DNA of 64,000 bases from Eucommia ulmoides (taxonomy: Eukaryota > Streptophyta > Magnoliopsida > Garryales > Eucommiaceae): contig CM028335.1 of the NCBI GenBank assembly GCA_016647705.1, forward strand, positions 34,052,212 through 34,116,211, written 5' to 3'. The position numbers and the translations under genes were made by a program. Shown piece after piece: positions 18,768-59,820 of the stretch (position 1 is its first letter; each line of letters starts with the position of its first letter). Under the pieces are notes generated by a model. It ran no database searches, was not told where the DNA came from, and saw only the letters and a list, made by a program, of their open reading frames with translations.

Positions 18768-18870
18768 CCCACCGCTGCAGTGGTCAAAGTATAGAGAGTT
18801 GTTGTATTTCCACCACTGCAGCGGTCATCCAACAGTAACCCCACTGACATTTCCACCGCTGCAGCGGTAG
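18768..18870. repeat. Dyad array, 3 copies, TGCA centre
   Basis: ACCGCTGCAGTGGT, ACCACTGCAGCGGT and the perfect ACCGCTGCAGCGGT, each preceded by CC. The variants differ by single transitions. Confidence 0.9.
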
Positions 18871-18914
18871 TCCGACAGCAGACAGTTTAGGATATTTTAA
18901 GATATTTTGAATCC

Positions 18915-18922
18915 TATAAATA
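18915..18922 (+). promoter_or_regulatory. TATA box of solo LTR
   Basis: CCTATAAATAGC, a canonical plant TATA box, about 45 bases downstream of the dyad array. Confidence 0.7.
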
Positions 18923-19891
18923 GCATCTCTTATCTCTTACATACGAGGAACGTTTTTGGGACTGTCTTGAGAGATCCAAGCCCTATCAACCAAGAGAAGA
19001 TCACAACGTAAAGAAGAGAGAGGGTTCTTGGAACAGTTTTAGCGTCGATTCTTTGGATAATAACTAGTCTCCTCATTTCTCTCTTTTATTCTTAGTTTGG
19101 TTGATAGTTTTGTATATATTTATCTTGTTTATTATTGTATATTTGGTTATGACCATGTATAGCCAAACATATATTGTCTAGGGAGCGATTCGTGTACGAA
19201 AAACGTTGTTTGAATAAATCTATGTTTCGTTAATGGTTGTTCATGTTTATTTGATTGTGTTTCTCATTTTATTACAATATTAATATGATTGTTATGGTAT
19301 TAGGGTTGATTTTGAGAATACAAGGTTTGACACTCGGGAGAGGTAACCCCAGATTCGAACTAGGGTTTAAACACAACGCGACGATCCAATGACCTGGGAG
19401 GGCGTTAGAAAGTGTGCAATCCATGATTTTGGGGCGAGACTCATGCAACCAAGTGTTATATAGATGCTCGAGAGGGACGTCAGTATTGACGCGAAATCAC
19501 ATATTCATTCACTTTACATTCCGGAGAGGTAGTGAGTGAGATTTCGATACCGAGATTGTTAGATAGGATGAATGTTGTTAATGTAAACTAGATTGAAACG
19601 AACACATTTAAGTGGACAAAGATAATCCCTTGACAATTTACTCCCTTAAACATCTATTTTAGTATATTAGATTAATTAGTTTAATTAGTTAATTAGTTTA
19701 GTATATTAGTATATTAACAAAAATATAAATCGAGTCGCCTAGATAAAGTTAGGTTATAATCATTGTGGTACTCAACGACCATCTAATCCAATCCCTATGG
19801 ATACGACAACCCTTACTCTTCCCACTCTACTAAAACTTGACTCGTACACTTGCGATGAAAGTAGCGTCGTAATTTACGAGCTACCATCGAT

Positions 19892-21295
19892 ACTGACACC
19901 AAATTTCGTATGTTTTCAAGGTGAGACTGGTCTAAGTATATCTCTAAGCTCAGCCTTCATGAAATGTATCGGTAAGCAGGCTTTATGGGAATTTGCTAAT
20001 ATTTTTATTCGTCGGCATTTGATGTCACGTGCTCGACTCCCGTCATTAATCATACGCATCTCTTGGCGTTTCGTTTGGGACACCTATTTAAGGAGCGCTT
20101 GATTGCCTCACTTTCTCATCCCTGAATCATTCCTCTTGCTTTTCATATTTCTTGAACGATGGGCTTTCTTATGAGCTTTGAAGTTGATAGTGGCGATAAG
20201 TTTCAGAAGACAAAGGTTTTTGTTCAGCAACTGTCTGATAGCTTCAATGCCCCTGTTATCTGAAAATGTTAGGAGTTCTTGTCATCCTTGCGTACAACAT
20301 CTGCCCTAATAATCTTCGGTGTCTGGAATCCTAAGAGGTATGGCCTGCTAAGCCACAGCTAAAGGTGGTTCAACGATCAAGTGCAACGGCAGAAGTGGAG
20401 GAGGATGTCTGTCATTCTGCGATCGTAATATTCAGTTGTTTATCTACAGGTAAATACAAATCCTTTCTCTCTGTAGGGTGTAGAACCTGAAGAAGAGTTC
20501 TTCTAGTGGTTCTTGGCCTTAAAGGAGTACGATACCTCCCCCTACAGTGCATCAATAGGGAATAGACGTGCCAATGTTGGTCCCTCTCAGAAACGATTGG
20601 CTCTTTAGTGGTTTGTGCCCTGAATTCTCGCATGGCAAGTTCTAAAAATGAGCCTTCTCTGAGTTTGCTGGTTTTGGGACCGGGAAACCTTTTTTCTCCC
20701 GATGCAGGTTAATCGATCTTGATCTGATAGCTTATTGTCTTGCTTTGGGAGATTTGAGGTGCAGCTATGTCGATTTTTTCTGATGAACCCATAGTTTTCA
20801 ATCATTCGGCGAAAATCTCCATCTTTTTCTCACCAATTGAGGGACAGCCCTTCTTCCTTGACTGAGAAGAAGGGTGGATCTTTATGGGACTTACTCCATA
20901 CCTTCTTTCTGGAAAAAGGATTTTTCCTCAATACTTGTCGGAGCCAAGGGGATTCTTGTTCTCAGGGTGTTTCTTCTAGGGAAGTTTCCAATCATGTATA
21001 CTGCAAATTCTTTGATTATATTCCTCTTCCATTTTTTCCTTAGGGCATTTTCTGTACCGTGTCAGATAACTTGTATGCTTGAGAAAACTTGTATGGAAAG
21101 CTTACTCATACGAATAAAAGATCTATGTTTTTTTTTTTTGCTTATCTATTTGCATTGTTTGTTTTATAACGATGACATTATCCAGCTCCTCGTCACCCCC
21201 CTATTGAAGGTGGGCACGGTTTTTCGATCATGACCAAATGTACGGAGGGGTATTTCATCCCGTCATCCTTTCCACGCGTGATGTAAGGACTCAGA
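19892..21295 (+). pseudogene. Antisense-ORF-like region of OG2 (part 2)
   Basis: Continuation of the OG2 3' region after the solo LTR. On plus there is a possible promoter-like string CTATTTAAGG near 20084, an ATG at 20159 opening MGFLMSFEVDSGDKF, then broken frames; 20874-21233 is open on plus with hydrophobic stretches. Nothing is recognisable as a known domain. By position it would be the N-terminal part of the antisense ORF whose later part is at 16-18.3 kb only if transcription ran from right to left, so orientation remains uncertain; read rightwards it could be a second small ORF. Confidence 0.3.
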
Positions 21296-21640
21296 TCTCG
21301 ACTAGAGGTCATCACCATCTGATGAGTTTCCTAATTTCGGCTTGTTTAGGGCATATTGTTGAGTCAGGAGCTAATGCTACCCTATCGAGCTAGTCTTACC
21401 ATTGGTCGGCCGCGACTTTCTTCCTACGCGGAGTGCGAGGAATCGGGTCTCGACCATATGGCAGAAGGCCTGATGAGTTCTTGAATTTTAGCTTGTCGAG
21501 GGCCTATTATCGAGTTAGGGGCTAAGACCGCCTTATCAAGCTAGTCCAACCATTGGTCAACAACGACTCCTTTCCTACGAGGAGCGCAATGAATCTTTGA
21601 GCCAGGGCTAAGGTCGCCTTATCAATTCAGTTCAGTGTTG
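21296..21640. repeat. 151-bp tandem repeat, just over 2 units
   Basis: Units begin TCTCGAC at 21296 and 21448, share GATGAGTT, 'ggcttgt' or 'agcttgt', GAGCTAGTC or AAGCTAGTC, CCATTGGTC and TTCCTACG in order; a third partial unit covers 21600-21640. It occupies the place in the OG2 3' UTR where OG1 has its minisatellite. Confidence 0.85.
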
Positions 21641-21971
21641 CATCTTGACATGTGTAGATACTTGCAAGTATTTCAAGTAAAACATAGGTCTTTATTGAGA
21701 AAAAAACATTGATTGCATATGCTACTGAAAATATTTCTTTAGGTGCTCTACATTTTTATCAACAGTCTTCATTCCAGCATTTTGAGTTCCTAGGTCTCTA
21801 GGCCGATGAATTTGGTGACACGATAGGGTCCTTCCTATTTCGGTCCCATCATCACCTCCACTTAGTCTTGCATGGAAAGAGTACTTTCTGTATTACAAGA
21901 TCACCTTCCTTGAATAAACGTGCTCTGATGCATATGTCATGGTATCGAGCCATCCACTGTTTATAAGCAGT
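21641..21971 (-). mobile_element. OG2 post-integrase region
   Basis: Aligns with OG1 1080-1425. Non-coding in both; it links the integrase end to the 3' UTR repeats. Confidence 0.65.
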
Positions 21972-22260
21972 TTACTCGATATAGGCGTGCTCCCATTTTT
22001 CCTCCGATAAATCCAAGATTAGCACTAGTTCGAGTTGGTTTTTGTTAGGTTCATAGTGATCTACCCTATAGGTTGGTAGGCTTAGCTCGATCGAGAAGAC
22101 TATTTCTGATCTTAATGTCATTGTGAACGGAGTTTTCCCTATTGAGACCCTTAAAATAGTGTGGTAAGCACACAATACTGAGGGGAGATCTTTCACCCAC
22201 TTAGATTTGGATTTTTGCAGCCAAGTTTTTTAGCATATGAAGGATAGTTCTATTTATTAC
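21972..22260 (-). pseudogene. OG2 integrase C-terminal part, decayed
   Basis: The minus-strand frame reads LCAYHTILRVSIGKTPF, then RSEIVFSIELSLPTYRVDHY, matching OG1 1424-1672 residue by residue in pattern and the post-core segment of plant Ty3/gypsy integrases. Stops and a shifted frame upstream near 22200-22260 show it is dead. Confidence 0.85.
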
Positions 22261-22604
22261 CTGAACTTGTCTGTTTAATTGCAGGTGGCTCGAAGTTGAC
22301 ATGTGGTGTTGGATCCCCAAGTTGGTGCAAAGGTCTTCAAACAGGTTATAATTGAATTACAAACCATGGTCGCTTATGATGGCCTGTGTAACCCCGAATC
22401 AGCGATGTACTTCCAAGTGAAATATCTAATCTTGGTATCATTGATCTTGGCTACAGCTTCGGATTAGGCCTACTTGGTGAAGTAGTTAATGGAGATGATG
22501 TAGAAGTTCTTATGGGCTGTAGCGATAGGTAATATCCAAGGATGTCAACTCCTCACTAGGCGAATGGCCAGGGTCCAGTCATTGGCAGTTGACTCGTAGC
22601 TGGG
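22261..22604 (-). pseudogene. OG2 integrase core, decayed, split by insertion
   Basis: The minus-strand sequence aligns with OG1 1730-2060 but has no long open frame. It is cut at 22604 by the pol-less element and resumes at 27954 with the zinc-binding part. The CTGGG (22600-22604) and CCGGG (27954-27958) flanks are the near-identical target duplication. Confidence 0.75.
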
Positions 22605-22961
22605 TATAAAAACTTGGTATGGTCATAGGAATATGCCGCTACTTACACCCGCAAGTATACGAGGTCTAAGTTTTAGTATAGTGTGATCATTAAGATCAGG
22701 TAATTGTATCCACAAAGATTGGTGTCGTTACTATCAAATACCATGTTTGTTGTGACCTAACTTTATTTAGGCGAAAAACAAATATAATTAATTAATTAAA
22801 CTAATACTAATATAACCTAAATTAACTACACTAATATGCTAATATGTTTTAGGGTGAATAATTACCTAGGGATTAACGGGTTTACAAATACGTGTTCGAT
22901 CTCGATTGACTCACGTTTACGATGCTCGACCTATTTGACAATCTCGGTACATAAACTCCAT

Positions 22962-23355
22962 CGCCACCTCTCCCGAGTGTAAGATGGGGGAATACATGAC
23001 TTTGAGTCAACGAAGAAGTCCTCCTCAACGTCTTAACGACCCTAGGTCACGTGAGTCTCGCCCAGCATCATTGATTGCACACAATCCAACTCCCAACCGA
23101 GTCAATGGATCGTGCATCGTATTTACCCTATTGAAACTCTATGTTCTAAAACCTCCTCGCCACCTCTCCTGAGTGTAAGACGAGAGATATAACACAACTT
23201 GGAGTCAACTAAAGTCCCCCTCAACGTCTTAACGACCCTAGGTCGCGTGAGTCTTGCCCCAACGTCATTGATTCTGCACGATTCAAACCCCGACCGGGTT
23301 ATAGAATCGTGGCATTTGTTTACCCTAATCCAAATCCGGGGTTTACCAAAACTCG
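22962..23355. repeat. Tandem U5 block, two units of about 196 bp
   Basis: Each unit runs CGCCACCTCTCC.GAGTGTAAGA, a GAGTCAAC...AAGTCC segment, CAACGTCTTAACGACCCTAG and a CGTGAGTCT...TCATTGATT segment. The same duplication is in 26603-27000, and in both LTRs of 42618-48266; other family LTRs have a single unit. Confidence 0.85.
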
Positions 23356-23824
23356 TATTTTCCATTTATCTAACTAAGCATGATAAACAAACAATACGAT
23401 AAATACAATCAAACTACGAAAGAATAATCACAAACGAAACACTAAAATCATCCAAACAACGTATTTATAAATATAGTGTTAATCCCTACTACAATCCATG
23501 TTTATCTATGGCATTAGCCGCATTTACATTGAAATAACGAGCTAAACATGCTCACATGATCCTAAGATAAAGAAATAAGGAAAAATAATCGAAAAACTTA
23601 GCCTCGTCCGAAGATAAACCGCTAAGAACGCTCAACGATTGATTCACTGCCTTCTCCACTTCGGGATGTGAGATCCACCTCTAAAACTCCTAAAGGCTAG
23701 CCTAAATATAGCTTAAGTTGCCCAAATGGCTAGGGGGGTTCAAGAAATAGGGAAAGGGGATGGTATTTATAAGCAAAATATCTAAATAATTATCCTAAAA
23801 ATATCTAGGTTGCGCAGAGGCTCT

Positions 23825-24068
23825 CCACCTAGGCGGAGGTAGGTCGGTTTGTGACCGTCATGGCAATGAAAACAGCGGTGGCTTAGGAAGAACAATCTGC
23901 TGAATTTCCGCCTAGGCGGTGGAATTCTCCACCTAGGCGGTGGGCTGTCAGTAGCCTATTTTTTATTTCTCTGCTAGATTTTTGCCTAAGCGGTGGTCCA
24001 TCAGTAACATTTGCCTTTCTCAGCTTCTTCACCGCCACGGCAGTGGTCTGGACACCGCGACGGTGGGC
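23825..24068. repeat. Dyad array, mostly CTAG centre
   Basis: CCACCTAGGCGGAGG (23825), CCGCCTAGGCGGTGG (23908), CCACCTAGGCGGTGG (23929), GCCTAAGCGGTGG (23983), then ACCGCCACGGCAGT (24029) and ACCGCGACGGTGG (24055). The first four are AvrII-type centres, the last two GC-only. Confidence 0.9.
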
Positions 24069-24287
24069 TCGTTTCACAATTTTGCCTCTGAGCTTGTTTT
24101 TCCGCCGTTCTTCGATCGCTTTTGGTTCGATCTCATCGTTTTCTCTTCAATTTCATATCTTTTTTCCCCACACACCTGATTTATACAAAAAGTATGAAAA
24201 CTAATTAAAATGTAACAAAATACTATATAAACGCTTGAAAACTAACTTAATTCGGTTTAGAAATACATAGGTGGATCACACTTATCA

Positions 24288-26260
24288 AATACCCCCAAAC
24301 TTGGAATTTGGCTAGTCCTCGAGCCAAACACACACACGAAAATGAAAATACACAAACTGAATTAAATAACAAACAACCTAAAAATAATCTAAATATAACA
24401 ATATGCGAGTTTTGACATCTTTTAATGGCCTAGTTATTGTTGTCCCTCAACAACCGCCAGTCATATCGAGTTTAGGCAGTAACACACATCATGAGGTTCT
24501 AGAATTTCGACATGAAATAATGGTGAACGCTATTCTAGATCCTGTAAACGTGTTAGTTCGTAACTCAATAATATAACTATACAACGACCGAATTGGATTA
24601 TCCCCCAACAAAATTCATGACTTCGACCGTGAAGGACTAGGATTTCCATAAGCCTGATTGGGGTCCACTCTCCACTAATGTAGGCTTGGAAGTTCAAAAA
24701 GATCAGAAGGACTTGGTTCGGTTTAGGAACATTTGGCCAAGGGTATTTCGGAATAGAAAACGGGTTAATGTTGTTAACTTAATGTTACCCAAGGCTCAAC
24801 GCTTGGCACATTCACTCTCGAACCCCTATAGATAAATTGGAAAACAATTCCGAACTAACATTTAAGAACATTATACTCACTTGTCAAAAGAAACGGAAAT
24901 AAAAACCATATTTACATTTGATTATTTTTTTTTTCTATTTTTTTTTTCTTTTCAACGAACACACCCCCAAACTAATTTGATTGTTATAATTGAAGGGGTT
25001 TGTGAAATACAAATGAAAAACGACAAGTGAGTACTCAAATACCGAACCAATTAGAAGTTCTCCCTAAACCCAACCGCTCATATCAACTAGCATTTACAAT
25101 TGCTAACTTGATTCACTCAAATGTGCCTTTGAATACAGCAATTAAATTTTGGAAAAAAAAAAGATCCATTGGTCGTGGTATTAGTTTATGTGTTCTGAAT
25201 TAAATTTGCATTTAGGCTTCGACAGGGTAACGAGGGATAAAGATATTGCATGGTAGGCTTCAAAAGGCTCAAGCGATAAAACGACTGCCTAAATCACTTC
25301 TCCTGAACTACCTCGCCTAGGATTTTACCTCAAACTTCCCTTTAATCAAGTTCTAGAATCCTTAATGCGTCATGAATTTAGCTTTTTCGATAATCGTCCT
25401 CAAGTCAATTGAATACAAATACATTGAGTCTATGTGCTCGTGTAAATTAGGATCTACTATAATTTTTACCAAAAAGCATAGTCAAGCACATAGAATCACA
25501 CATGCATGGGCATTACCCTTGACTTAGAAAACAACCAGGGGTAATTATCATCATTGGGTAACGGCCCAATTGAATGCAAAACTCAGCATGAAAACAACAA
25601 CACAAAAACATAAACACATTCTAACCTAGACACACATGCAATATGAGAAAACAGTAACACATAAACTAACATACTACACATCACTTCCAAACTTAAAACG
25701 GATAGTGTGCTCAGTGAATCCAATGATCAATCTCAATATATGAAATTTAAAGCATACTGACGAAAGGTGTTTAGAACACTTACCTGGGAGGTGAAAGGAT
25801 CTCGCCTCCAATTCAAGTTGGATGTAACAGAATTAATTTATTTGACCTTGGGTTGTCTGCCAAGAAGCGCGTGGTTTAATGACCTCGGCCCGATATTTTT
25901 AGAACGCCATTAGAATTGGCAAGGTTTTACACTGGATGGATCGATCTTTCAACGAAATGTCTCACCGGCTTATGTGCTCGGCTAAGCAACATAAAACGGA
26001 TTGGAATCCCGTCGAAAGGGATGCATCAATACCCGACGATCTAACATCGACAAGTACCCAACATTACATACAAAAAATTATATACAAAGAAATGCCTAAA
26101 ATAAAATTAGGTCATTTACACACAATATCAAAACTAACAACATCGCTAATCCCCAAATACAATACATTTGCTTCTCCTATCTAAAACTTAAGTCCTGAGC
26201 CGTTACCACATTTCTCCGGCAATAACATCAAAACAATCCTCGGCAACGGTGCCAAAAACT
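24288..26260 (-). mobile_element. Internal region of pol-less element
   Basis: Minus orientation. From the PPT end it contains the GGCTCGAGGACTAGCC stretch, then long non-coding sequence strongly alike in 29640-30840, 39208-40740 and 44880-46428. Near the primer end only a short remnant of a gag-like frame persists: the minus strand at about 25890-26050 keeps the counterpart of the 5' part, but some 0.8 kb seen in the copy at 40880-41700 is missing. The plus-strand open frame at 25936-26184 lies antisense to this remnant and is not believed. Confidence 0.75.
26241..26254 (-). promoter_or_regulatory. Primer-binding site, tRNA-Asp type
   Basis: Minus strand TGGCACCGTTGCCG, one change from TGGCGCCGTTGCCGGGG, the complement of the plant tRNA-Asp 3' end used by Athila-type elements; six bases (AGTTTT) separate it from LTR ACCA. 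Confidence 0.75.
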
Positions 26261-27953
26261 TGGTAGGGGCATAGGAATACGCCGCTACTTACACTCGCAA
26301 GTATACAAGGTCTAAGTTTTAGTATAGTGTGATCGTTAAGATCGGGTTATTGTATCCACAAAGATTGGTGTTGTTACTATCGAATACCGCATTTGTTATG
26401 ACCTAACTTTATCTAGGCAAAAAACAAATGTAATTAATTAGTTAAATTAATACTAATATAACCTACATTAACTACACTAATATGCTAAAATGTTTTAGGG
26501 TAAATAATTTCCTAGGGATTAACATGTTTACAAATACGTGTTCGATCTCGATTTACTCACGTTTACGGTGTTCGACCTATTTGACAACCTCGATACGTAA
26601 ACTCCACCGCCACCTCTCCCGAGTGTAAAATGGGGGAATACATGACTTCAAGTCAATGAAGAAGTCCCCCTCAATGTATTAACGAACCTAGGTCACGTGA
26701 GTTTCATCTAGTGTCATTGATTGCACACAATTCAACTCCCAACCGGGCCATTGGATCGTGCGTTGTATTTACCCTATCGAAAATCTCCGTTTTAATCTCC
26801 CTCGCCACCTCTCCCGAGTGTAAGACAAGGGATATAATGCAACTTCGAGTCAAATAAGAAGTCCCTATCAATGTCTTAATGACCCTAGGTCACCTGAGTC
26901 TCTCCCCAACGTCATTGATTGTCCACGATTCAAACCCCGATCGGGTTATAGAATCGTGGCGTTTGTTTACCCTAATCCAAATCCAAAGCTTGCCAAAACC
27001 CTATATTCTCCATTTATCTAACTAAGCATGATAAACAAACAATATGATAAATACAATCAAACTACGAAGAACAATCACAAACGAAACACCGAAATCATCC
27101 AAATAATGTATTTATAAATATAGTGTTAATACCAACTACAATCCATGTTTAACTATGGCCTTAGCCGTATTTACAATTAAATAACGATCTAAACATTCTC
27201 ACATGATCCTAAGATAAAGAAATAAGGAAAAACAATCAAAGAACTTAGCCTCGTCCGAAGATTAACCACTAAGAACGCTCAACGATCGATTCGTCGTCTT
27301 CTCCACTTCGGGATGTGAGCTCCACCTCCAAAACTCCTAAACCCTAGCCTAAATATAGCTTAAGGTGCCCAAATGGCTGCGGGGTTCAAGAAAGGGGGAG
27401 AGGGGATGGTATTTATAAGCAAAATATCTAAATAAATATCCTAAAAATATCTAGGTTGTGCAGAGGCTCTCCGCCTAGGCGAAGGGTTCCTCCACCTAGG
27501 CGGAGGTAGGTTGTTTTATGACTACCGCGGCGATGAAGATAGCGGTGGCTTAGGAAGAACAATCTGCTAAATTTTCGCCTAGGCGGTGGGATGTCAGTAG
27601 CCTATTTTTTATTTCTCTGCTGGATTTTTGCCTAGGTGGTGGATTTCTCCACCTAGGTAGTGGTCCATCAGTAACATTTGCTTTTCTCAGCTTCTTCACT
27701 GCCGTGGCAGTGGTCGGGACACCGCGGTGGGGGCTTATTTCCCAATTTTGCCTCTGAGCTTGTTTTTCCACCGTTCTTCGATTGCTTTTGGTTCCATCTC
27801 ATCGTTTTCGCTCCAGTTTCCTATATTTTTGCCCCACACACCTAATTTATACAAAAAATATAAAAACTAATTAAAACGTAATAAAATACTATATAAACGC
27901 TCGAAAACCAACTTAATTTAGTTTGGAAATACGTAGGTGGATCACACCTATCA
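26261..27953 (-). repeat. 5' LTR of pol-less element
   Basis: Starts (minus) TGATAGGTGTGATCCACC at 27953 and ends CCCCTACCA at 26261; 1693 bp. TATA box on minus near 27415 (CTTATAAATACC). Two U5 blocks (26610 and 26806) and a dyad array at 27468-27735. Confidence 0.85.
27468..27735. repeat. Dyad array in 5' LTR
   Basis: CCGCCTAGGCG, CCACCTAGGCGGAGG, CGCCTAGGCGGTGG, GCCTAGGTGGTGG, CCACCTAGGTAGTGG, then ACTGCCGTGGCAGT (27697) and ACCGCGGTGG. Colinear with 23825-24068. Confidence 0.9.
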
Positions 27954-28339
27954 CCGGGGTATTGATACATAGCCCGAACCTTATGCACTTGTTGCATTTT
28001 TTCACAAATTCCTTAGCATCGGCCTCCAGCATTGGCCAAAAGTAGCCGTATCGAAGTGTCTTTCTAGCTAGAGATCACGCTTTTCAAATATTACTGCAGA
28101 GACCCTCGTGGATGTCCAGGAGGATTAGGTGGCCCTCGTTCGAGTGCAAGCAATATAATAACACCCCCAGAAATAAGCACTTATATAGGGTACCTTGTAG
28201 CAAGGTGTACCGGGATGCTCAGTAGCTAACTTTCCTGGCCTCACTCTTCTGTTCCGAGAGGATTTCACAGTGGCAAATCCATTTAGCTAGGCTGGTGTGT
28301 TATTATCTCCACATTTTCTTAAGGCTCATTGTAGTTGGG
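27954..28339 (-). pseudogene. OG2 integrase zinc-binding end and linker
   Basis: Resumption of OG2 after the insertion. On minus, the sequence aligns with OG1 2060-2607 (for example 'attccttag.atcggcctcca', the codons around the CxxC). No long frame survives. Confidence 0.7.
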
Positions 28340-28800
28340 CTACAGGACGTTTTCGACCATGATGTTTCGAGGTCTAGGGGAATTAAAGGTAGAAGCTAAG
28401 TTGGCCAACGAATCAGTGTGCTTGTTCTCCTCCCACGGGATTTGCTTGATAGTGACTTTCTTAAACCCTTGCAGCCGGAGCCTAGCTTTTCTTAAGTATG
28501 ATGCTATTTTGGCTTCTTTGGCGGCATACTTCCCATTGATCTGATTGGCTATCAAGGGGGAGTCGTAAAAGGTTTCAGCTTCAGTGGTGCCAAGCTCTTT
28601 GAGGATCCTAAGGATACCAGCACTTCATATTCAGCCTCGTTGTTTGTAGCTTTGAGGGAAAGTCTCAAGGAGTATTCGGGGGTGTCTCATTCAGAAGTTT
28701 AGATCACAACCCCGGCCCCCGTGCTGTTGTAGTTTGAAGATCCATCTACGTGTGTGGTCCAGCATTCAATCGAATGCTGGTTCGAATCATCTATACTCTT
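28340..28800 (-). pseudogene. OG2 RNase H domain
   Basis: The minus frame at 28340-28555 reads ANQINGKYAAKEAKIASYL, KKVTIKQIPWEENKHTDSLA and NLASTF, the C-terminal half of plant Ty3/gypsy RNase H (family V.QV.G.Y.AK...M..YL, ..QIPRE.N..AD.LA.L). The upstream half is frameshifted but keeps the ATNNEA codons near 28640 and a domain start near 28760. The final catalytic aspartate, in the family's N-x-x-A-D-x-L-A, is retained as TDSLA. Confidence 0.88.
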
Positions 28801-29098
28801 CGTGCTTCCTGAAGGTTGGTCTGTTAGGGGACGTGAACTCCGAGATGAAATCGGCTAATACTAACCTTTGATGGTCATTTGCGGTTGGTACTCGATGTTG
28901 AATGCCCCTGTGCTGTTGTAGTTTGAAGATCCATCTACGTGTACGGTCCAGCATTCAATCGAATGCTGGTTCGAATCCTCTATGCTATCCATGCTTTTGG
29001 GAGGTTGGTCTGTTAGGGGATGTACACTCCGAGATGAAATCGGCTAATACTGACCTTTTATGGTCATTTACAGTTGGTACTCAATGTCGAATTCTCCC
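28721..29098. repeat. 189-bp tandem duplication in OG2 pol
   Basis: Units 28721-28909 and 28910-29098 both begin GTGCTGTTGTAGTTTGAAGA and are about 90 percent alike by eye. The junction has short CCCC homology. The period is a multiple of three. OG1 has a single copy at the same place. Confidence 0.9.
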
Positions 29099-31970: not shown

Positions 31971-33376
31971 TAGTAGCAGAATATTACATCACTACTTTTA
32001 CCGCAAGTGTACGGGTCAAGTTTTAGTATAATGGAAAAAGTAGGGTTGTCATATCTAGAGAGATTGGATTAAATCGCCGTTGAGTACCACGATTGTCATA
32101 ACAAAATTTTATTTAGGCGATTGAATTTAGATTTTTGTTTTTAATATAAACTAAATTAAACTAAACTAATTAAACTACAATACTAATATGATGTTTAAGG
32201 GATTATATTGCCTATGGATTAACTTTGTTCACTTAAATGTGTTCGAATCAATCTAGTTTACATTAACGACATTCAAATCTATCCGACAATCTAGGTATTG
32301 AACACTCACCCACTACCTCTCCCGAGTGTAAAGTGAATGAATATGCGACTTCGCGTCAACGCTAAAGTTCCCCTACAGCATCTATATGACACTTGGTCAC
32401 ATGAGTCTCACCCCAAGCTCACGTATTGCACACTTTCTAATACCTTCCTAGATCACTAGATCGTCGCGATATGTTTAAACCTTAGTCCAAATCCAAGGTT
32501 ACCTCTCCCGAGTGTCAAACCCCAATTTCTCAATATATCATAACAAGTATATAATGGAAGTGGAAGAACGGTAAACACAATCGAATATAAATGAACAATC
32601 GATAACGAAATAAAGATCAAACAAACAACGTTTTTTATAAACAAATCGCTCCCTAGATAATATATGTTTAGCTACACATGGCCATAGCCCTATATTCAAC
32701 AATACACAAGCCAAACTATAAACCAAAACTAAGAAATAAAGAGTGAAACAATGAGAGTAGCCGTTATCTAAAGAACCGACGCTAAAACCACTCCGAGATT
32801 GTTTCCTCTTCTTGTCTTTGTGATCTTCCCTTGGTTGATATGGTTTGGAGCTCTCAAAACCTTCCCAAAAATGTGCTCAATGTGTTGGGAAGAAGGGAGG
32901 ATATTAAGGGATCAAAAATATCGAGAAAATATCCCAAAATATCTAAAACATCGGGTGGCAGCGGTGGGAAGTCAATAGCCTTTCTAACGGGTGACCGCTG
33001 TAGCGGTAGAAAGTCAATAGCTTTTCTAACAGGTGACCACTGCAATGGTGGGAATCACCGTTGCAATGATGAGGTTCACTACTGCAGCAGTGGGCAAGCA
33101 GAAAGGTCATGTTCTATTAACCGTTGTAGCGGTGGTTTCACTGCTGCAGCAATAGCCTACAATCTTGCACTTTCTTTCTTTGCTCTTTTTCCACCGTTCT
33201 GCCATCAAAGTTCTACCGATTTGCTCATTTATGAACTGTTTTTATCCATTTTCATCCAAAACACCTAATTTATAACAAAATAAATAAAAATATGTTAACA
33301 CATATTAAAACAATATAATAGCACTCAAAAAATACCAAAATTGGCTTGGGAATATATAGACAAATTCCACCTATCA
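31971..33376 (-). repeat. 5' LTR, 1406 bp
   Basis: Starts (minus) TGATAGGTGGAATTTGTC at 33376 and ends CTGCTACTA at 31971. One U5 block only. Dyad array at 32955-33155. No clean TATA box is visible at the family position (about 32910-32950 reads AGATATTTTGGGATATTTTC on minus). Confidence 0.85.
32955..33155. repeat. Dyad array, TGCA-type centre
   Basis: Includes ACCGCTGTAGCGGT (32995), ACCACTGCAATGGT (33035), ACCGTTGCAATGAT, ACTACTGCAGCAGT (33078), ACCGTTGTAGCGGT (33120) and ACTGCTGCAGCAAT. The changes are mostly transitions from ACCGCTGCAGCGGT. Confidence 0.9.
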
Positions 33377-42612: not shown

Positions 42613-42840
42613 GTCGTTGACAGGTGTGATCTACCTACATATTTTCAAACTGAATTAAGTTGATTTTTGAGCATTTATATAGTATTTTATTATGTTTTAA
42701 TTAGTTTTTATCTTTTTGTATTAAATCAGGTGTGTGGGGCAAAAAGATAGGAAACTGAAGCGAAAACAATAAGATCGAACCGAAGGCGAGTCGAAGTTAC
42801 AGTGGATAAACAAGCAAGGAGGCAAAAATATGAAAGAAGC

Positions 42841-43270
42841 CCACCGCCTAGGCGTCCAGACCTCCGCCTAGGCAGTGAAGATACTAAGAATGACAAAAGG
42901 CTACTGACAGCCCACCGCCTAGGTGGTAAATTCCTCCTCCTAGGCGGGAAACCCCAGTAGAAACATTTCCAAGTCTACCGCCTACTTCTTCGCCTAGGCG
43001 GTCACCAAACCTGCAAAGCAAGTATAGGTGCTGTAACTTCAAGGCTATGTTGGACTATGATTCAATACTATTTTGGAAACACTCAAAACATGGAAGTTAT
43101 ATATCTTTTTATTATATTTCCATAGGTTTTTGAAATACCTCAATCGAAGTTCGGATGAAGAAGTTACAGTTAAAACAAAATGCAAACCTACAGTAACTTC
43201 GCCTAGGCAGATATTCCACCGCCTAGGCAGAAAAGCAACAGAAAGTTAACCGACCTAACTTTACCTAGGT
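42841..43270. repeat. Dyad array, CTAG centre
   Basis: At least eight CCTAGG-centred sites, among them ACCGCCTAGGCGTC (42843), CCGCCTAGGCAGT, ACCGCCTAGGTGGT (42926), CTCCTAGGCGG, TCGCCTAGGCGGT (42993), ACCGCCTAGGCAGA (43218) and ACCTAGGT (43263). Confidence 0.9.
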
Positions 43271-43323
43271 GAAAACCCCTGACATAGCCTTGATATTTAT
43301 TAGATATTTTAAGATATTTTGGC

Positions 43324-43330
43324 TATAAAT
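43324..43330 (+). promoter_or_regulatory. TATA box of 5' LTR
   Basis: GCTATAAATATC, in the same position as 47154-47160 of the other LTR and preceded by the family's repeated GATATTTT strings. Confidence 0.7.
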
Positions 43331-44497
43331 ATCATCCCTTCTCCCCTCCTTGTGAACCCCCTGGCCATTTGGGCACCTTAGGCCATATTTAGGCTATGGT
43401 TTAGGAGTTTTAGAGGTGGAGCTCACATCCCGAAGTAGAAAAGACGGCGAATCAATCGTTGAGCATTTTTAGTGGTCTATCTTCTAACGAGGCTAAGTTC
43501 TTCAATTGTTTTTCGTTATTTATTTATCTTAGGATCATGTGAGCATGTTTAGATCGATTTATATGTTTATACGGTTATGACCACGAGTTAAATATGGATT
43601 GTAGTAGGGATTAATGGTATATTTATAAATATGTTTGTTTGGATGATTTCGGTGTTGTGTTTATGATTGTTCTTCATAGTTGGATTGTGTTTATCGTATT
43701 TGTTTGTTTATCATGCTTAGTTAGATAAATAGAGAATACGGGATTTTGACAAACCTCGGATTCAGATTAGGGTAAACAAACGTCGTGATTCTATAACCCA
43801 GCCGGGGTTTAAATCGTGGATAATCGATGACGTTGGGGTAAGACTCACGCGACCTAGGGTCATTAAGACGTTGAGGGGGACTTTTTCGTTGACACGAAGT
43901 TGTGTTATATCCCCCGTCTTACACTCAGGAGAGGTGGCGAGGGAGTTTTAGAACGGAGATTGTCGACAGGGTAAATACAACACGACGATCCAATAACTCG
44001 GGAGGGAGTTGGATTGTGTGCGATCAATGACGCTGGGCGAGACTCATGTGACCTAGGGTCGTTAAGACGTTGAGGGGGACTTCTTTGTGGACTAGAAGTC
44101 ATGTATTCCCCCGTCTTACACTCGGGAGAGGTGGCGGTGGAGTTTACGTACCGAGGTTGTCAAATAAGTCGAACACCGTAAATGTGAGTAAATCGGAATC
44201 GAACACGTATTTGTAAAAACGTTAATATTTAGGCAATTCTTCACCCTAAAACATATTAGCATATTAGTGTAGTTAATTTAGGTTATATTAGTGTTAGTTT
44301 AATTAATTAAATACATTTGTTTTTCACCTAGATAAAATTAGGTCACGACAAACGCATTATTCGATAGTAACGACACCAATCCTTGTGGATACGATAACCC
44401 GATCTTAACGATCACACTATACTAAAACTTTGCCTCGTACGCTTGTGAGTAGTCATATACGCGAAGGAGAGTAGAATCCTTCAGGCGTATACGTTTT

Positions 44498-44514
44498 TGG
44501 CACCGTTACCAGGG
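44498..44514 (+). promoter_or_regulatory. Primer-binding site, tRNA-Asp type
   Basis: TGGCACCGTTACCAGGG, six bases after the LTR end; two or three changes from the tRNA-Asp complement. Confidence 0.75.
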
Positions 44515-46411
44515 ATTGGTCGTTAGGCGAATTCAATTCTTGGTGTTCGCAACCAAGTTTTTGGTAATGATTATTGGGCATTGATTTGTTGTTATTGTCG
44601 ATATTGTGTCTAAATGACTTAATTTTACTTTAGGCGTTTCTTTGTATATAATTTTTGTTTATAGTTTTGTTTTTGTTTCCAATGCAGGGTACTTGGCGAT
44701 ATTAGATCGATGAATATTGATGCATCCCTTTCAACGGGATTCCATGCCGTTTTATGTTGCTTGGCCAAGCACATAAGCCGGTGAGGCGTTTTGTTGAAAG
44801 AATGAGCCATCCAAAGCAAAACCTCGCCAATCTTGAGGGTGTTCTGAAAATGTCGGGCCGAAGACATTAAACCATACGCTTCTTGGAAGGCAACCCAAGG
44901 TCAAATAAGTTAAATCCGTCATATCCGACTTGATTCGAAGGCGAGATCCTCTCGCCTCTCAGGTAAGTGTTCTAAACACCCTTCGTCAGCTTGCTTTAAA
45001 TTTCATATGTTGAGAATGATGATTAGGATCACTGAGAACACTATCCATTTTAAGTTCGGAAGTGATGTGTAGTATGTTAGTTTATGTGTTACTGGTTTCT
45101 CGTATTGCATGTGTGTTTAGGTTAGAATATGCTTATGTTTTTGTGTGTTGTTGTTATATGTTAAGCTTTGCATTCATCTGGGCCATTACCTGATGATGAT
45201 AATTACCCCTGGTTGTTTTCGAGGTCAAGAGTAATACCCATGCATGTGTGATTCTGTGTGCTTGATTATGCGTTTTAGTCAAAATTATTGTAGATCCTAA
45301 TTTGCATGGGCACATAGACTCAATGTATAGTTATTCAATTGATTTGAGGATGATTATTGATTAGCCAAATTCATAACACATTAAGGATTCTAGAACTTGA
45401 TTGAGGGAAAATTTGAGGCGAAATCCTAGGCGAGGTAGTTCAGGAGACGTGATTTAGGCATTCTCTTGTCGCTTGAGCCTTTTTAAGCCTACCTTGTAAT
45501 ATCATTATCCCTCGTTACCCTGTCGAAGCCTAAATGCAAATTCAATTCAGAACAAGTAAACTAATACCCTGGCCAGTTGATCATTTTTAGAACCTTAATC
45601 GCTGAATTTAAAGGCACATTTGAGTGAATCAAGTTAGCCGTTGCAAAGGCTACTTGATGTGAGCGGTTGGGTTTAGGGAGAACTTCGGATTGGTTCGGTA
45701 TTCGAGTAGTCACTTGTCATTTTTTATTTTTTTTTAACTATACCCGTAAAATCATACTAATCAAATAAGTTTGGAGGTGTGCTTGGATTTCAAAAAAAAA
45801 AACTATGTAAATAAGTTTATTTCGTTTCTTTTTTATAAGTGAGTACGTCGGTCTTTAATGCATGTTCAGGGTTGTCTCAATTTAACTATGGGGTTTCGAG
45901 TGTGAATGTGCCAAGCGTTGAGCCTTGGGTAACATTAAGTTAACAACGTTAACCCATTTTCTATTCCAAAATACCCTTGGCCAACTATTCCTTAACCAAA
46001 CCAAGTCCTAATGATCTCTATGAACTTCCAAGCCCACATTAGTGGAGAGTGGACCCCAATTTGGCATATGAAAATCCTAGTCCTTCACGGTCTAAGTCAT
46101 GAATTTCGTTGGGGGATAATCCAATCGAGTCATTGTCTAGTTATATTATTGAGTCACACACTGACACATTTACAGTATCTAGAATAGCATTCACCATTAT
46201 TTCATATCAAAATTCTAGAACCTCATGATGTGTTTTATCGCCTGAACTCGATATGACTGGCGGTTGTTGAGGGACAATAACTTGGCCGTTAGAAAAATTT
46301 AAAACTCGCATGTATTTATGTTTGGATTGTTTTTAGGTTGTTTGTTATTTAATTCAGTTTGTCGTATTTTTCATTTTAGTGTGTGTGTTTGGCTCGAGGA
46401 CTAGCCAAATT

Positions 46412-46428
46412 CCAAGTTTGGTGGTATT
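46412..46428 (+). promoter_or_regulatory. Polypurine-like tract before 3' LTR
   Basis: AAGTTTGGTGGTATT immediately before the LTR TGATAGG; other copies read GTTTGGGGGTATT here. Confidence 0.55.
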
Positions 46429-48266
46429 TGATAGGTGTGATCTACCTACGTATTTCCAAACCAAATTAAGTTGGTTTTTGAGCGTTTACATAGTATTTTA
46501 TTATGTTTTAATTAGTTTTTATCTTTTCGTATTAAATCAGGTGTGTGGGGCAAAAAGATAGGAAACTGAAGTGAAAACGGTGAGATCGAAATAAAGGCGA
46601 GTCGAAGTTACGGTGGATAAACAAGCGAGGAGGCAAAAATATGAAGGAAGCCCACTACCTAAGTGTCCAAACCTCCGCCTAGGCAGTGAAAATACTGAGA
46701 ATGACAAAAGGCTACTGACAGCCCACCTCCTAGGCGGGAAATTCCTCCTCTTAGGTGGGAAAGCCCAGTAGAAACATTTTCAAGTCCACCGCCTACTTCT
46801 TCCCCTAGGCGGTCACCAAACCTGCAAAATTGGTACAGGTGCTGTAACTTCAAGGCTATTTTGGACTATTATGCAATCCGATTTTGGAAACACTCAAAAC
46901 ATGAACGTTGTATATCTTTTTCTTATATTTCCATAGGTTTTTGGATCACCTCAATCGGAGTCGGATGAAGAAGTTACAGTTAAAACAAAATGCAAACCTG
47001 CAGTAACTTTGCCTAGGCAGATATTCCACCGCCTAGGCGAAAAAGCAGCAGAAAGTTAACCGACCTAACTTCTCCTAAGCGAAAATTCCTTCGCCTAGGC
47101 AAAAACCCCTGACACAGCCTTGATATTTATTAGATATTTTGAGATATTTTGACTATAAATATCATCCCCTCTCCCCTCCTTGTGAACCCCCCGGCCATTT
47201 AGGCAACTTAGGCCATATTTAGGCTATGGTTTAGGAGTTTTCGAGGTGGAGCTCACATCCCGAAATGGAGAAGACGGTGAATCGATTGTTGAGCATTCTT
47301 AGCGGTTCATCTTCGGACGAGGCTAAATTCTTCGATTGTTTTTCCTTATTTCTTTATCTTAGGATCATGTGAGCATGTTTAGCTCGATTTATATGTTTAT
47401 ATGGTTATGACCATGAGTTAAATATGGATTGTAGTAGGGATTAACGGTATATTTATATATATGTTTGTTTGGATGATTTCGGTATTGCGTTTATGATTGT
47501 TCTTCGTAGTTTGATTGTTTTTCATAGTTTTGACAAACCCGGGATTCAGATTAGTGTAAACAAATGTCATGATTCTATAACCTAGTCGGGGTTTAAATCG
47601 TGGACAATCGATGACGTTGGGGCAAGACTCACACAACCTAGGGTCGTTAAGACATTGAGGGGGACTTCTTCGTTGACACGAAGTTGTGTTATGCCCCCGT
47701 CTTACACTTGGGAGAGGTGGCGAGAGAGTTTTAGAACAGAGATTGTCGATAGGGTAAATACAACGCGACGATCCAATAACCTGGGAGGAAGTTAGATTGT
47801 GTGCAATCAATAACACTGGGTGAGACTCACGTGACCTAGGGTCGTTAAGAAGTTAAGGGGGACTTCTTCGTTGACTCAAAGTCATGTATTCTCCTGTCTT
47901 ACACTCAGGAGAGGTGGCGGTGGAGTTTACATACCGAGGTTGTCAAATAGGTCGAACACCGTAAACGTGAGTAAATCAAAATCGAACACGTATTTGTAAA
48001 AATGTTAATCCCTAGACAATTCTTCACCTTAAAATATATGAGCATAGTTAATTTAGGTTATATTAGTATTAGTTTAATTAATTAAATACATTTATTTTTC
48101 GCCTAGATAAAATTAAGTCACGACAAATGCGGTATTCAATAGTAACGACACCAATCCTTGTGGATACTATAACCCGATCTTAACGATCATATTATACTAA
48201 AAATTTGACCTCGTACACTTGCAAGTAGTCATATACACGAAGGATAGTAGAATCCTTCGGCGTATA
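46429..48266 (+). repeat. 3' LTR of second pol-less element
   Basis: TGATAGGTGTGATCTACC...GGCGTATA, 1838 bp; TATA box 47154-47160, two U5 blocks (anchors about 47710 and 47913), dyad array 46651-47105 colinear with 42841-43270. Confidence 0.88.
46651..47105. repeat. Dyad array, CTAG centre
   Basis: Same order of sites as in the 5' LTR, several further decayed (CCACTACCTAAGTGTC, CTCTTAGGTGG) and others kept (ACCGCCTAGGCGAA, TCGCCTAGGC). Confidence 0.88.
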
Positions 48267-48271
48267 GTCAT

Positions 48272-50511: not shown

Positions 50512-50513
<2 letters not shown>

Positions 50514-50543
<30 letters not shown>
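50514..50543. repeat. TA microsatellite
   Basis: About 14 TA dinucleotides. Confidence 0.95.
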
Positions 50544-50546
<3 letters not shown>

Positions 50547-51570: not shown

Positions 51571-51578
51571 TTTATAGA
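51571..51578 (-). promoter_or_regulatory. TATA box of element X LTR
   Basis: Minus strand GGTCTATAAATACC, followed (minus) by GGCCACCCCTCTCA, a plausible start region. Confidence 0.6.
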
Positions 51579-52570: not shown

Positions 52571-53060
52571 TATTTTAGTCCGAAACTGGGATTTGTCAAA
52601 TCCCGTATTCTCAATATGTAAATCTAAGCAATATAAACAAACAATACAGCACACACAATCAACATAACTAAGAACAATCGCAAACAAAACACAAACTCAA
52701 CTAAACAACGTTTTCATAAATTATATTAATAATCCCTATACAACCTATGTTTAGCCAATGGCCATAACCACGTATACAATGTAAAATGGCATAAACATAC
52801 TCAACAACTACCAAAATGAAGAAAACAAAGAGAAGAAACGAGTGACTTAGCCAATATCCGAAGAATAGCCGCTAAAACCGTCGAATGATCACTTCCCTCT
52901 TCATCCTCCACCTCCGGTTGAGAGATCTTCCAAAAAAATCCCTTATCCTAACCCTAAAATATAGCCTAAGGCCTTAGGGGCCGAAGAGTTCGGAAGAGAG
53001 GAGGAGAAAAGGGTATTTATGTACAAAATATCTAAAACAATATCTAACACTGCGTAGAGG

Positions 53061-53328
53061 CCACCGCTGCAGCGGTGGAGTATGTCGGTTAAGGTTCACC
53101 TAGGTGGTGGAGTAGGTGGTAGATTGGGAAAACTTTTTGCTGGTTCACCGCCGCGGCGGTGGATTTTATCGCCACGGCACTGGGTAGTCAGTAGCCTATT
53201 TTTGTTCTTTACTTCTTCACCGCCGTGGCGGTGGGATTCACCACTGCGGCAATGGTCTATCAATGGCCTTTGGTCTTTCTCAGCATCTTCACCACCGCGG
53301 TGGTGGTCTAGACGCCATGACAGTGGGC
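53061..53328. repeat. Dyad array with TGCA, CTAG and CGCG centres
   Basis: CCACCGCTGCAGCGGTGG (53061, perfect 18-bp dyad), CACCTAGGTGGTG (53098), ACCGCCGCGGCGGT (53147, perfect), GCCACGGCAC (53171), ACCGCCGTGGCGGT (53219), ACCACTGCGGCAAT (53240), ACCACCGCGGTGGT (53291, perfect) and GCCATGACAGT. Aligned position by position with 23825-24068, where most centres are CTAG. Confidence 0.9.
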
Positions 53329-53528
53329 TTATTTGCAGAATCTTGCCGCCTTGCTCATTTTTCCACCGTTCTCGATACGAATTGATCATTTATGCTCCGA
53401 TTTCATACATTTTCACCCTACGCACCTATTCTAATACAAAAAGAATAAAAACATATAAAAATAACTATAAACGTACTCGAAAACTAACAAATTCGGATTA
53501 GAAATATAGGGGTAATTTACACCTATCA

Positions 53529-56228: not shown

Positions 56229-56400
56229 GATATAATGTGCCCCAGCTCTAAATGGGACGACTCTTATCATGGAGTGTCAATGGAGAAACAGGATATAATG
56301 TGCCCTAGCTCTAGCTGGGGCGAGTCTCATCATAGATTCAAAATAAAAAAATCAGATATAATGTGCCCTAGCTCTAGCCAGGACTCAGCTTAGGACTATC
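56229..56400. repeat. 63-bp tandem repeat, in frame
   Basis: GATATAATGTGCCC at 56229, 56292 and 56355. Because the period is 21 codons, the plus frame 56169-56393 stays open and repeats DIMCPSS. The frame starts in non-coding surroundings and I take it as a by-product. Each unit has CCCCAGCTCTA..TGGGGCG-like arms. Confidence 0.85.
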
Positions 56401-57649: not shown

Positions 57650-57892
57650 GTTTCCTACATATCCCAGATGTTGTCGAGAATCAGGCTAACACGTAGTTCC
57701 TGTGTCTTTGATAAGTTCAGATTTGTCAGCCGAACCTGCGAGGATTTCCTACGTATCCCAAGTGTTGTTGAGAATCAAATTAACATGTAATTCCTACTTA
57801 ATTGATGAGTTTGAATTTGTTAAGCAAACCTACGAGGGTTTCCTACGTATCCTAGGCGTTACCGGGAATCAGGCTGACACGTAGTTCCTAAG
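57650..57892. repeat. 94-bp tandem hairpin units
   Basis: CTACATA (57655), CTACGTA (57749) and CTACGTA (57843), each followed 36-42 bases later by ACGTAGTTCC or CATGTAATTCC. Between arms are GAGAATCAGGCTAAC-like bases. Confidence 0.88.
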
Positions 57893-58380
57893 GCTTTGAT
57901 TTAGTTAGATTAGTTAAGTTTACTATGATTGAGGCATTTTGTTTTGCATTATGAAACAAAATGGGCACTGCTTCCATTAGGAAATCATGGACCGGATGAC
58001 ATGTGCTACAGTCGTAGATTGATGCAGTGACTAGATAAGTTACGTTGGGGAATCTAGTCTGACACTTCCTATTGTGTGATTCATGATTATTGACAGTGTG
58101 AAGTATGCCTCAACCTACGAGCTGGGGAGGATACTGATTAGCTATAGGATTGCAAAGCTAAATTGGTTTATCTTGCTATTTGTCGAGGTGACAAATTTAG
58201 GTTTTTACTGATTAAATCCCAAAATATACTTGGCTGACAGGTTTATTATTGTATTGTTTGTGAAGTTGGTATCTTAGGAGTTTTTCGTCTGTCACAACCT
58301 CCTGGGCCATGCAGTATTGTGAATTGTATCTAGTCATGCATTGGTAAGAGTGATTACCTGTATTACTAAAGTTTGTCGAT

Positions 58381-59413
58381 TACTTGTTGTTTTCTAAAAA
58401 GCTTTGGATATCATCTTTTATTACACCGAATTTCGTAGTGTGCCTTAATTAGTCTATTTCTTGGATATCATTATTTGTTCTTATAGTGGTGTATTGGTCT
58501 AGCATTTTGATGTTTCTCCTAAGCGAGATGGGTTTGCAAATTTTGGTATGTCGCATTTGTGGGGACGGGAGTTTTTAAATTGGTTTTTTTGGCTATACCT
58601 TAGTCTAAGGTAGGGAAGAATGCACGAGGTCATAACCGTTATTCTCAGAGAGGTAAACTCAATCCTTTGCCCCTAGTGCTTGGCTAGAAATAGATTATTA
58701 AAGATTAATCATGGTTGCTTACGATTGTTTTTATAAAATTGTGGTATAGTTAAGTCTGACATGTCTTTCAAAAGTTACGTGTGAATCTTTAGCGATTCAA
58801 ATGTTTCGTCTCAAGTCAAAACCCTAATGATAAAACCTTGACTTTCTTTCTAGACTACATTATATCAGACTCGGGTTCTTTATAGGATGCTGGTCGTCGT
58901 CCTTCTCGTTCTATTTGGAAAGGCAAGTCCCCTGAGACCTCGATCGGAGGGAGTGCGTCGAAGCACTCCCGAGGTCGACTCAGGATATCGCCACTCAAGA
59001 TTTTTGATGATATGCCTACCCTTTCCACTTCTACTGCTATGGAGACCTTCAGAGTGTTTAGAGTCGATGACTCGATAATGGCCAGCTCTTCAGGTATTAC
59101 ATTAGCAGGGGAGAGAAATGGAGTGCATTTTTCATATTGCAACTTAGTGCCCGAGTTAATCTTTACCCTTCCAGCTCCAAAGGACCCTGAGTTGAGGGAT
59201 CATAACTTTCGCATCCTACTACTTCTATTCTTCAGTGGGACTTCCACGGATTCTTTATCCAAAAGTTGGGAAATCTTCGTCTACTGGTGGTCTTCTTCTC
59301 TTTTCAAAAGATCCATCCCTAAGGTAACTTTATAGTGTACCACACTTGTCTAGTGGTTGAAAACCCAGCATCCTATGGGGTGTGGTGGTTTTCTAGTTCT
59401 ATGGCCAATAGGT
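58381..59413. mobile_element. Element X remainder, possible coding remnant
   Basis: A minus frame 58855-59142 and a plus frame 59012-59335 overlap. The minus frame (PANVIPEELAIIESSTLNTL) is acidic and could be a pol or 3' accessory remnant of X, but I cannot match it to a domain. The rest has no open frame. It ends at the LTR starting at 59414. Confidence 0.3.
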
Positions 59414-59589
59414 TGAAATATACCTATCTACTTCTAAGATGAATTTGGTCGTTTTTTAGTGTATTATTAATATTTAATTGCATTTTAGTTTATTTTTATG
59501 TAAATCAGGTGTAGGGACGTTAACGAGCTATAAACGAGCGAAACGGTGGGAAAACGGTGAAAAAGCAAGGTTTCAAGAATAGCAGACCC

Positions 59590-59820
59590 ATCACCGTAGC
59601 GGTCAGGCCACCGCCGCGGTGGTGAGAATGCTGGGAGATACTGAAATGCACAAGTCCCACCACTTAGGCGGTCTAGCCACCGCCGAGGCGATGAAAGTGC
59701 AGAGATTTTGGAGCTTGTTCCACTACCTAAGTGGTGATTCCACCGCCTAGGCAGTAAAAGATCAGAGAGCCAACCAACATACCTACCGCTGCAGCGGTGA
59801 TCCCACCACCGCAGCAGTCA
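59590..59820. repeat. Dyad array with three centre types
   Basis: ACCGTAGCGGT (59592), ACCGCCGCGGTGGT (59611), ACCACTTAGGCGGT (59659), ACCGCCGAGGCGAT (59679), ACTACCTAAGTGGT (59722), ACCGCCTAGGCAGT (59741), ACCGCTGCAGCGGT (59784, perfect) and ACCACCGCAGCAGT (59805). Confidence 0.9.

Follow-up and report, generated by a model that had tools for sequence, protein, structure and literature searches.

A 64,000-nucleotide stretch of the Eucommia ulmoides genome (C11:34052212-34116211, in the following referred to as the window) raises the question why the long terminal repeats (LTRs) of a retrotransposon family carry arrays of one short palindrome in front of their TATA region. A single LTR family supplies nine U3 regions (A-I) in the window, in which a dyad of two inverted arms around a four-base centre recurs. 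A first-pass annotation of the window considered three explanations for this dyad, namely a transcription-factor site read by a dimer with free choice of centre, a hairpin former, and a product of gene conversion or replication. Here we describe the dyad in the window and in the host assembly scanned genome-wide (946.7 Mb). On balance the arrays are probably a one-sided row of sites for dimeric transcription factors, coupled to Evening Elements (EE), which together would constitute the transcriptional control region of the LTR; this reading is drawn from sequence patterns.

Abundance, spacing and neighbours of the dyad

Matches to ACCGCNNNNGCGGT with at most one mismatch number 18 in the window, versus 0.29 expected, and the exact form CACCGCNNNNGCGGTG (CACCGC-N4-GCGGTG) occurs 11,873 times genome-wide, compared with 8 occurrences of the reversed pattern. 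By hand, 57 dyads were listed in the nine U3 regions, 1 to 9 per LTR and upstream of the TATA region, which agrees with their earlier placement between LTR start and TATA box. Eight slots recognised by their flanks accommodate 49 of these dyads, and the other eight lie outside the slots. By contrast, the name 'TGATAGG family' used in the first-pass annotation is not upheld: the string TGATAGG is not enriched in the window (9 occurrences versus 8.06 expected), and LTR starts differ between copies (TGATAGG, TGACAGG, TGATAAG, TGATTAATAGG), with U3 E truncated at its 5' end and U3 I devoid of a clear TGATAGG-like start. A search for relatives in viral contigs returned four stretches with a GC content of 0.52-0.72 and without EE, which we take as chance matches, and no instance of the EE-TATA pattern.

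The distances between neighbouring dyads follow the helical turn. In the window and 39 loci, 194 intervals no longer than 110 bp were measured, and their lengths fall into bands about 10.5 bp apart (19-24, 30-34, 39-45, 48-54, 62-65, 69-75 and 83-86 bp, with centres near 20, 32, 42, 51, 64, 72 and 84), while none measures 25-29, 35-38, 46-47, 55-61, 66-68 or 76-82 bp; one interval of 17 bp and eight of 90 to 105 bp lie outside the bands. The resultant at 10.5 bp is R =.667, and with one interval per source (38 sources) the mean R is.60, versus a null 99.9th percentile of.44. This periodicity was first detected in 42 clusters and held in 19 new, held-out loci (R =.668, n = 72), also for intervals longer than 23 bp (R =.558, n = 47, where 300 null draws reached no more than.461). 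Orthologous intervals shift between LTRs by approximately one whole turn, for example 42 versus 49-51 and 43 versus 51-53 bp, or 42-43 versus 52-53 and 20 versus 30-32 bp.

Downstream of the dyads, the EE AAAATATCT, a target of LHY, CCA1 and RVE proteins, is found 17 times in exact form in the window, versus 2.25 expected, and 13 of the 17 are located 16-48 bp downstream of arrays, in eight of the nine U3 regions. Of the 42 clusters, 31 have the EE core GATATTTT no farther than 200 bp away, compared with 6.6% of random sites, and so do 18 of the 19 held-out arrays. Genome-wide, the combined pattern GCGGTG-N8-38-AGATATTTT, in which tandem EEs can score twice, yields 3,386 + 4,480 = 7,866 matches versus 16 + 24 = 40 for the reversed pattern. 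In 46 oriented arrays, chosen for a GATATTTT within 130 bp downstream, one core is present in 21, two in 17, three in seven and four in one, and the core centres (n = 75) mostly lie 28-31, 38-43 or 50-53 bp past the axis of the last dyad, with a phasing of R =.81 at 10.5 bp. SHAQKYF-type MYB proteins, a class that includes LHY, CCA1 and RVE, have 120 matches in the host genome and none in 14 control genomes; like the EEs, they point to a plant host. Twenty-nine of these matches, many of them equal-scoring, crowd one end of C2 (C2:3718-72482) and the small contigs C132, C70, C259 and C274, apparently as a large tandem gene cluster.

A proposed row of phased binding sites

The dyad, in its longer form CCACCRC-NNNN-GYGGTGG, may be seen as two inverted half-sites approximately one helical turn apart, and each dyad could be bound by a homodimer or a pair of a host DNA-binding protein. 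The sites would share a single face of the helix because half-sites alternate about one turn apart, dyads are separated by whole turns and the EEs share their phase; whole-turn spacing of this kind would permit side-by-side binding of the proteins. One or more EEs, mostly 15-30 bp past the last dyad, would occupy the same face, followed by the TATA region. MYB proteins of the LHY/CCA1/RVE type might accordingly be placed beside the dyad-bound dimeric factor near the TATA box, and the host clock, together with the dyad-binding factor, would gate transcription of the LTR. The centre would act as a spacer or as the outer part of a half-site, with GC or TA preferred at the axis, while centres may shift between slots as blocks through dyad exchange; after insertion they decay by CpG transitions. 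Among the three explanations considered at first, the dimer-read transcription-factor site fits best, since the spacing is locked to the helix and the phase is common with the EEs, with binding as its predicted part. A more specific version is possible but doubtful: a helically phased, one-sided rail, with half-sites of alternating orientation about every turn, would end in tandem EEs on the same face and put transcription of the family under the plant circadian clock, and Sireviruses and Athila/Tat-like elements would have converged on CACCG/CGGTG palindromes via one conserved host factor.

Several observations weigh against a row of binding sites. Held-out intervals longer than 23 bp have their best period at 9.9 and not at 10.5 bp, R is only.38 on the 43 distinct interval values, and intervals and EE distances are not independent draws because the arrays are homologous. 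Eleven of the 42 clusters have no EE core within 200 bp, U3 E contains no exact EE, and TATAAA or TATATA follows within 80 bp past the first EE core in only 22 of the 46 oriented arrays. In addition, conservation of the arms in the window does not exceed that of the 5' part of U3. As to the protein, ACCGCC halves resemble DREB/ERF sites and ACCGCT halves do not. An LBD factor as the dyad reader is a poor candidate, as its motif GCGGCG, in the form available from the literature excerpts, fits only CGCG centres. The sequence cCACCGccc has been named a DREB-binding motif by motif prediction (PMC10094877), and in the form given in that excerpt it does not fit TGCA centres; a DREB/ERF protein is thus at most a possible reader.

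If the arrays are indeed such control regions, thousands of EE-bearing LTR sites would be scattered through the genome as potential clock-responsive promoters. A readable spacing rule and a named neighbouring element open binding, phasing and clock control to direct tests.

Conservation and decay of the arms

A comparison of the arms with the flanking U3, as proposed in the first-pass annotation, does not favour the arms in window copies. Between LTR mates their identity is.84 versus.89 for the 5' part of U3; between sister families the values are.64 and.80, and between distant copies.67 and.64. Divided by site type, identity of LTR mates is.59 (23/39) at arm CpG and.62 (44/71) at other CpG, and.93 (85/91) at non-CpG positions of the arms and.94 (942/1,006) elsewhere. 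Inserted copies decay neutrally, mainly at CpG, and for this reason the old arms in the window are not conserved above U3. It had been reasoned that arms no better conserved than U3, or a majority of centres that are not self-complementary, would mark the dyad as just a decaying simple repeat. Both are what we observe, the latter genome-wide, yet a decaying simple repeat is rejected on the strength of the 11,873 dyads versus 8 reversed and of the spacing bands.

The four-base centre

The palindromic centre is abundant and far from obligatory. In the hand-listed dyads, whose register was chosen partly by symmetry, 40 of 57 centres are palindromic (CTAG 24, TGCA 9, CGCG 5, CATG 2) and 17 are not; the unbiased window figure is therefore that obtained by selection on the arms alone, with 19 of 32 centres palindromic versus 7.8 by permutation (maximum 17 in 5,000 permutations). 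For the first 50 exact-arm dyads listed genome-wide, a hand tally gives 19 self-complementary centres versus 8.5 calculated by hand for random pairing of half-centres. Twenty loci contain 66 such centres in 162 dyads, about 30 of which may be chance (the reversed control gave 30), versus 25.9 by random pairing (maximum 40 of 2,000), and 19 further loci contain 35 in 94 versus 19.1, where the highest of 5,000 permutations equals the observed value of 35. Both sets of loci were picked around those first 50 dyads, and the three figures overlap.

In the genome-wide count of exact-arm dyads, CTAG (2,106), TGCA (1,030) and CGCG (1,024) make up 4,160 of 11,873 centres (35%). From the half-centre counts (CT 7,703, TG 4,214 and CG 4,655 of 23,746), independence predicts 1,249, 374 and 456, respectively, which amounts to an excess of 1.7-fold for CTAG, 2.8-fold for TGCA and 2.2-fold for CGCG. 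The comparison with independence that the first-pass annotation had called for thus gives about twice expectation for the three together; the genomic majority is nevertheless non-palindromic, and a self-complementary centre is a preference, not a rule. Nor are all departures single transitions, as had been stated: CGAG differs by a transversion and CGTA by two steps.

The youngest pair seen points in the same direction. The most similar direct-repeat pair of at least 700 bp in the 20 loci (locus L020, 95.2% identical) has CTAA, CTGA and TTAG centres common to both copies at corresponding places, and the active progenitor therefore worked with such centres. Together with the non-palindromic majority, these shared centres rule out a strict palindromic-centre rule, and a homodimer site with an obligatory palindromic centre is not compatible with this youngest pair, which keeps non-palindromic centres. 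Five loci on C1 (L015, L021, L022, L045, L046) carry dyads 19-20 bp apart with CTAA followed by TTAG, a pair that is itself an inverted repeat; the order in L020 is the opposite.

Coupling within the centre was assessed in 245 distinct array dyads selected on arms. The innermost pair is complementary in 178 of them versus 94 expected (z = 12), compared with z = 2.8 for positions 8/11, z between -1.5 and 0.9 for positions 3-7, and z = -7.1 for the outermost pair, which is an orientation effect. Mixed T/G centres are rare (CT-TG 3 versus 31 expected, CT-CG 13 versus 33), whereas CG-TG mixtures occur as expected (28 versus 26). The supposed free choice of centre consequently applies to positions 8/11, which are nearly independent, and not to the central dinucleotide, where GC or TA is favoured. 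On a tree of the U3 regions, in which some nodes are weakly supported, the eight slots together show no fewer than 12 changes of the central pair and one hybrid state, with A-T, A-C and G-T centres assigned to the GC type. These changes look like likely cases of whole-dyad block exchange between slots, and to this extent the proposed gene-conversion or replication product retains a part, as the probable means by which centres move. Centre coupling alone is no proof of selection because adjacent bases are tightly linked.

Alternative explanations

Block exchange could also be the whole story. In that case the dyads would be a mutational by-product that reverse transcription had spread through template switching and block exchange, with no binding protein involved, and their palindromy and centre coupling would stem from descent of a few dyad types. 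Moving blocks would give just such repeated central-pair changes with a single hybrid, the coupling peaks at the two adjacent central bases, where linkage is tightest, and hybrid or non-palindromic types such as CTCG and CTAA have also been amplified. Left unexplained are the whole-turn interval differences, the phase shared with the EEs and the survival of dyads in LTRs that have diverged (only 64% identity in the 5' U3) despite fast CpG decay. We regard this origin of the arrays as unlikely, and the same applies to descent as the source of palindromy and coupling.

The second alternative, that the palindromes fold as RNA hairpins in LTR transcripts and serve as small-RNA templates or structural signals, appears decidedly improbable. 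Array I, the sole array folded, beats 200 shuffles (z = -3.59), and in the 57 hand-listed dyads the arm pairs 3/16 (35 versus 27.9) and 6/13 (35 versus 27.1) are complementary above permutation; the palindromes of maize Sirevirus LTRs, as far as they are described in the accessible part of the report, offer a precedent (PMC10760457). In the larger, arm-selected set of 245 dyads, however, arm positions 3-7 do not covary. A hairpin needs neither a self-complementary loop nor helical-turn spacing to the next hairpin, and a link to EEs does not follow from it. Read as sense RNA, the oriented arrays contain more pair-breaking G>A than G.U-keeping C>T changes among single transitions in the arms (134 to 100), and the hairpin former of the first-pass annotation, as a sense-RNA structure under selection, is on this account without support.

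That the reader is a DNA-binding protein encoded by an autonomous partner element instead of a host factor would suit the non-autonomous appearance of the copies, with no Pfam family in nine internal translations, and is nonetheless very improbable, as no such partner was found, though no systematic search was made, and we know of no Ty3 element that encodes a protein of this kind.

The LTR family in the window

Two near-complete elements are present, at 22608-27953 (LTRs B and C) and 42618-48266 (LTRs F and G), both with LTRs of about 1.7-1.9 kb and with mate identities of 86% (B/C) and 87% (F/G). On the forward strand, the U3 of LTR A (18562-18960), which includes the LTR start, has three dyads at 18769-18870, all with TGCA centres, followed by an EE at 18900-18908 and TATAAA at 18915-18920. 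Both U3 regions of the first element are on the minus strand: that of LTR B, the 3' LTR (23740-24287), contains seven listed dyads at 23822-24066 with CGCG, CGTG, CATG, TTAG and CTAG centres, and EEs at 23775-23783 and 23798-23806, and that of LTR C, the 5' LTR (27390-27953), contains seven listed dyads at 27468-27713, an additional damaged dyad reaching 27736, and EEs at 27421-27429 and 27444-27452. This element is nested inside a copy of another repeat, whose parts at 21641-22604 and 27956-28908 match 1087-2060 and 2058-3021; on its minus strand, the host repeat (window 21641-28908 and 1087-3021) matches RVT_3.

LTR D (U3 32870-33376, minus strand) has six dyads at 32992-33155 with TGCA or TACA centres and an EE at 32936-32944. 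The truncated U3 of LTR E (37974-38290, plus strand) retains a single dyad at 38182-38199 (CGTG), and within it AGATAT sites are present and an exact EE is absent. In the second element, on the plus strand, the U3 of LTR F, the 5' LTR (42618-43360), carries eight CTAG dyads within 42841-43275, EEs at 43302-43310 and 43312-43320, and TATAAATA at 43324-43331; the U3 of LTR G, the 3' LTR (46429-47190), carries nine dyads within 46652-47105 with CTAG, CTAA and TTAG centres, and EEs at 47132-47140 and 47142-47150. The arrays of LTRs F and G contain an additional stretch of about 200 bp in which GTTACAGT/AGTAACTT motifs recur, and the remaining U3 regions are gapped in the alignment opposite this stretch. 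LTR H (U3 52960-53528, minus strand) combines CGCG and its derivatives, CATG, CTAG and TGCA centres in eight listed dyads at 53061-53326, with an EE at 53025-53033, while LTR I (U3 59420-59920, plus strand) has eight dyads at 59588-59820, arranged as four pairs 20 bp apart, EEs at 59837-59845 and 59847-59855, and TATAAA at 59870-59875.

A sequence resembling a primer-binding site, TGGCACCGTTGCCGAGGA, lies at the end of LTR C (26237-26254, minus strand), and its counterpart TGGCACCGTTACCAGGGA directly follows LTR F (44498-44515, plus strand). Both are putatively of the Athila/Tat tRNA-Asp type; TGGCACCGTTGCCGAGGA does not resemble the copia tRNA-Met primer site. Nine translations of internal regions (three regions in three frames, one strand each) gave no Pfam family, and among them none of the reverse transcriptase, RNase H and integrase domains of the Ty3 Athila/Tat clade, so that domains give no proof of the clade, and these copies appear to be non-autonomous; the two translations compared with Pfam first had no match either. 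Neither element showed a clean target-site duplication: for B/C a 6-bp match is displaced by 3 bp, and for F/G there is none.

Comparison with known systems

Like the heat-element LTRs of ONSEN/Copia-35, which a study on carrot mentions by name (PMC13102513), the present arrays appear as an LTR promoter exploiting host transcription-factor sites, with other sites and another predicted cue. The same text writes the EE as AAATATCT and describes miniature inverted-repeat transposable elements and genes of carrot as controlled by LHY/RVE. As in such EE promoters, EE sites are found here beside the core promoter; the difference is that here an LTR carries them, frequently as tandem copies 10-11 bp apart, and in phase with palindromes. 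Our literature search returned no paper joining LTR retrotransposon, evening element and palindrome, and none joining retrotransposon, circadian clock and LTR promoter, although EEs in LTRs may be in print; the dyad strings (with N) did not occur among the matches listed.

In maize Sireviruses, LTR palindromes attract small RNAs, a 2016 finding that is restated, with a suggested cis-regulatory role, in the excerpt available (PMC10760457). These hotspots and the dyad arrays are alike in being cis-regions of the LTR that are rich in palindromes and predicted to fold strongly; the difference is that folding of the sense RNA here leaves no compensatory signature.

The closest relatives in design are the repeated motifs (RMs) of Sireviruses (Ty1/copia), palindrome arrays with a CGG-CCG signature in 12 of the 13 elements of Table 3 in Bousios et al. 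(2010, PMC2829016). According to the accessible text of that paper, RMs form clusters ahead of the TATA box in the LTR's upper half, the bases between their conserved parts vary, and they are called Sirevirus-specific, with one consensus RM per element and an untested function (PMC2829016). The earlier statement that no named element has this design fails because RMs share it. The arms of CACCGC-N4-GCGGTG contain CCG and CGG, the dyads too form clusters in the LTR ahead of the TATA box (TATAAA/TATATA near the first EE in 22 of 46 arrays), and the maize version CACCGGACTGTCCGGTG, as given there, has the same CACCG/CGGTG ends. RMs are described with at least eight copies per element; the dyads listed in the window number 1 to 9 for each LTR. 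Further characters of RM arrays are additional copies ahead of an ENV-like gene and a CpG island border. Unlike in RMs as described, the centre varies here within one array, and the primer site is presumably of Athila/Tat type. Helical phasing and EEs characterise the present arrays and are mentioned for RMs nowhere in the accessible text (PMC2829016). What CGG/CCG palindrome arrays do in plant LTRs was left untested there; the same design is here available in thousands of dyads. The present arrays extend the Sirevirus kind by variable centres, a spacing rule, Evening Elements and a different-looking primer site.

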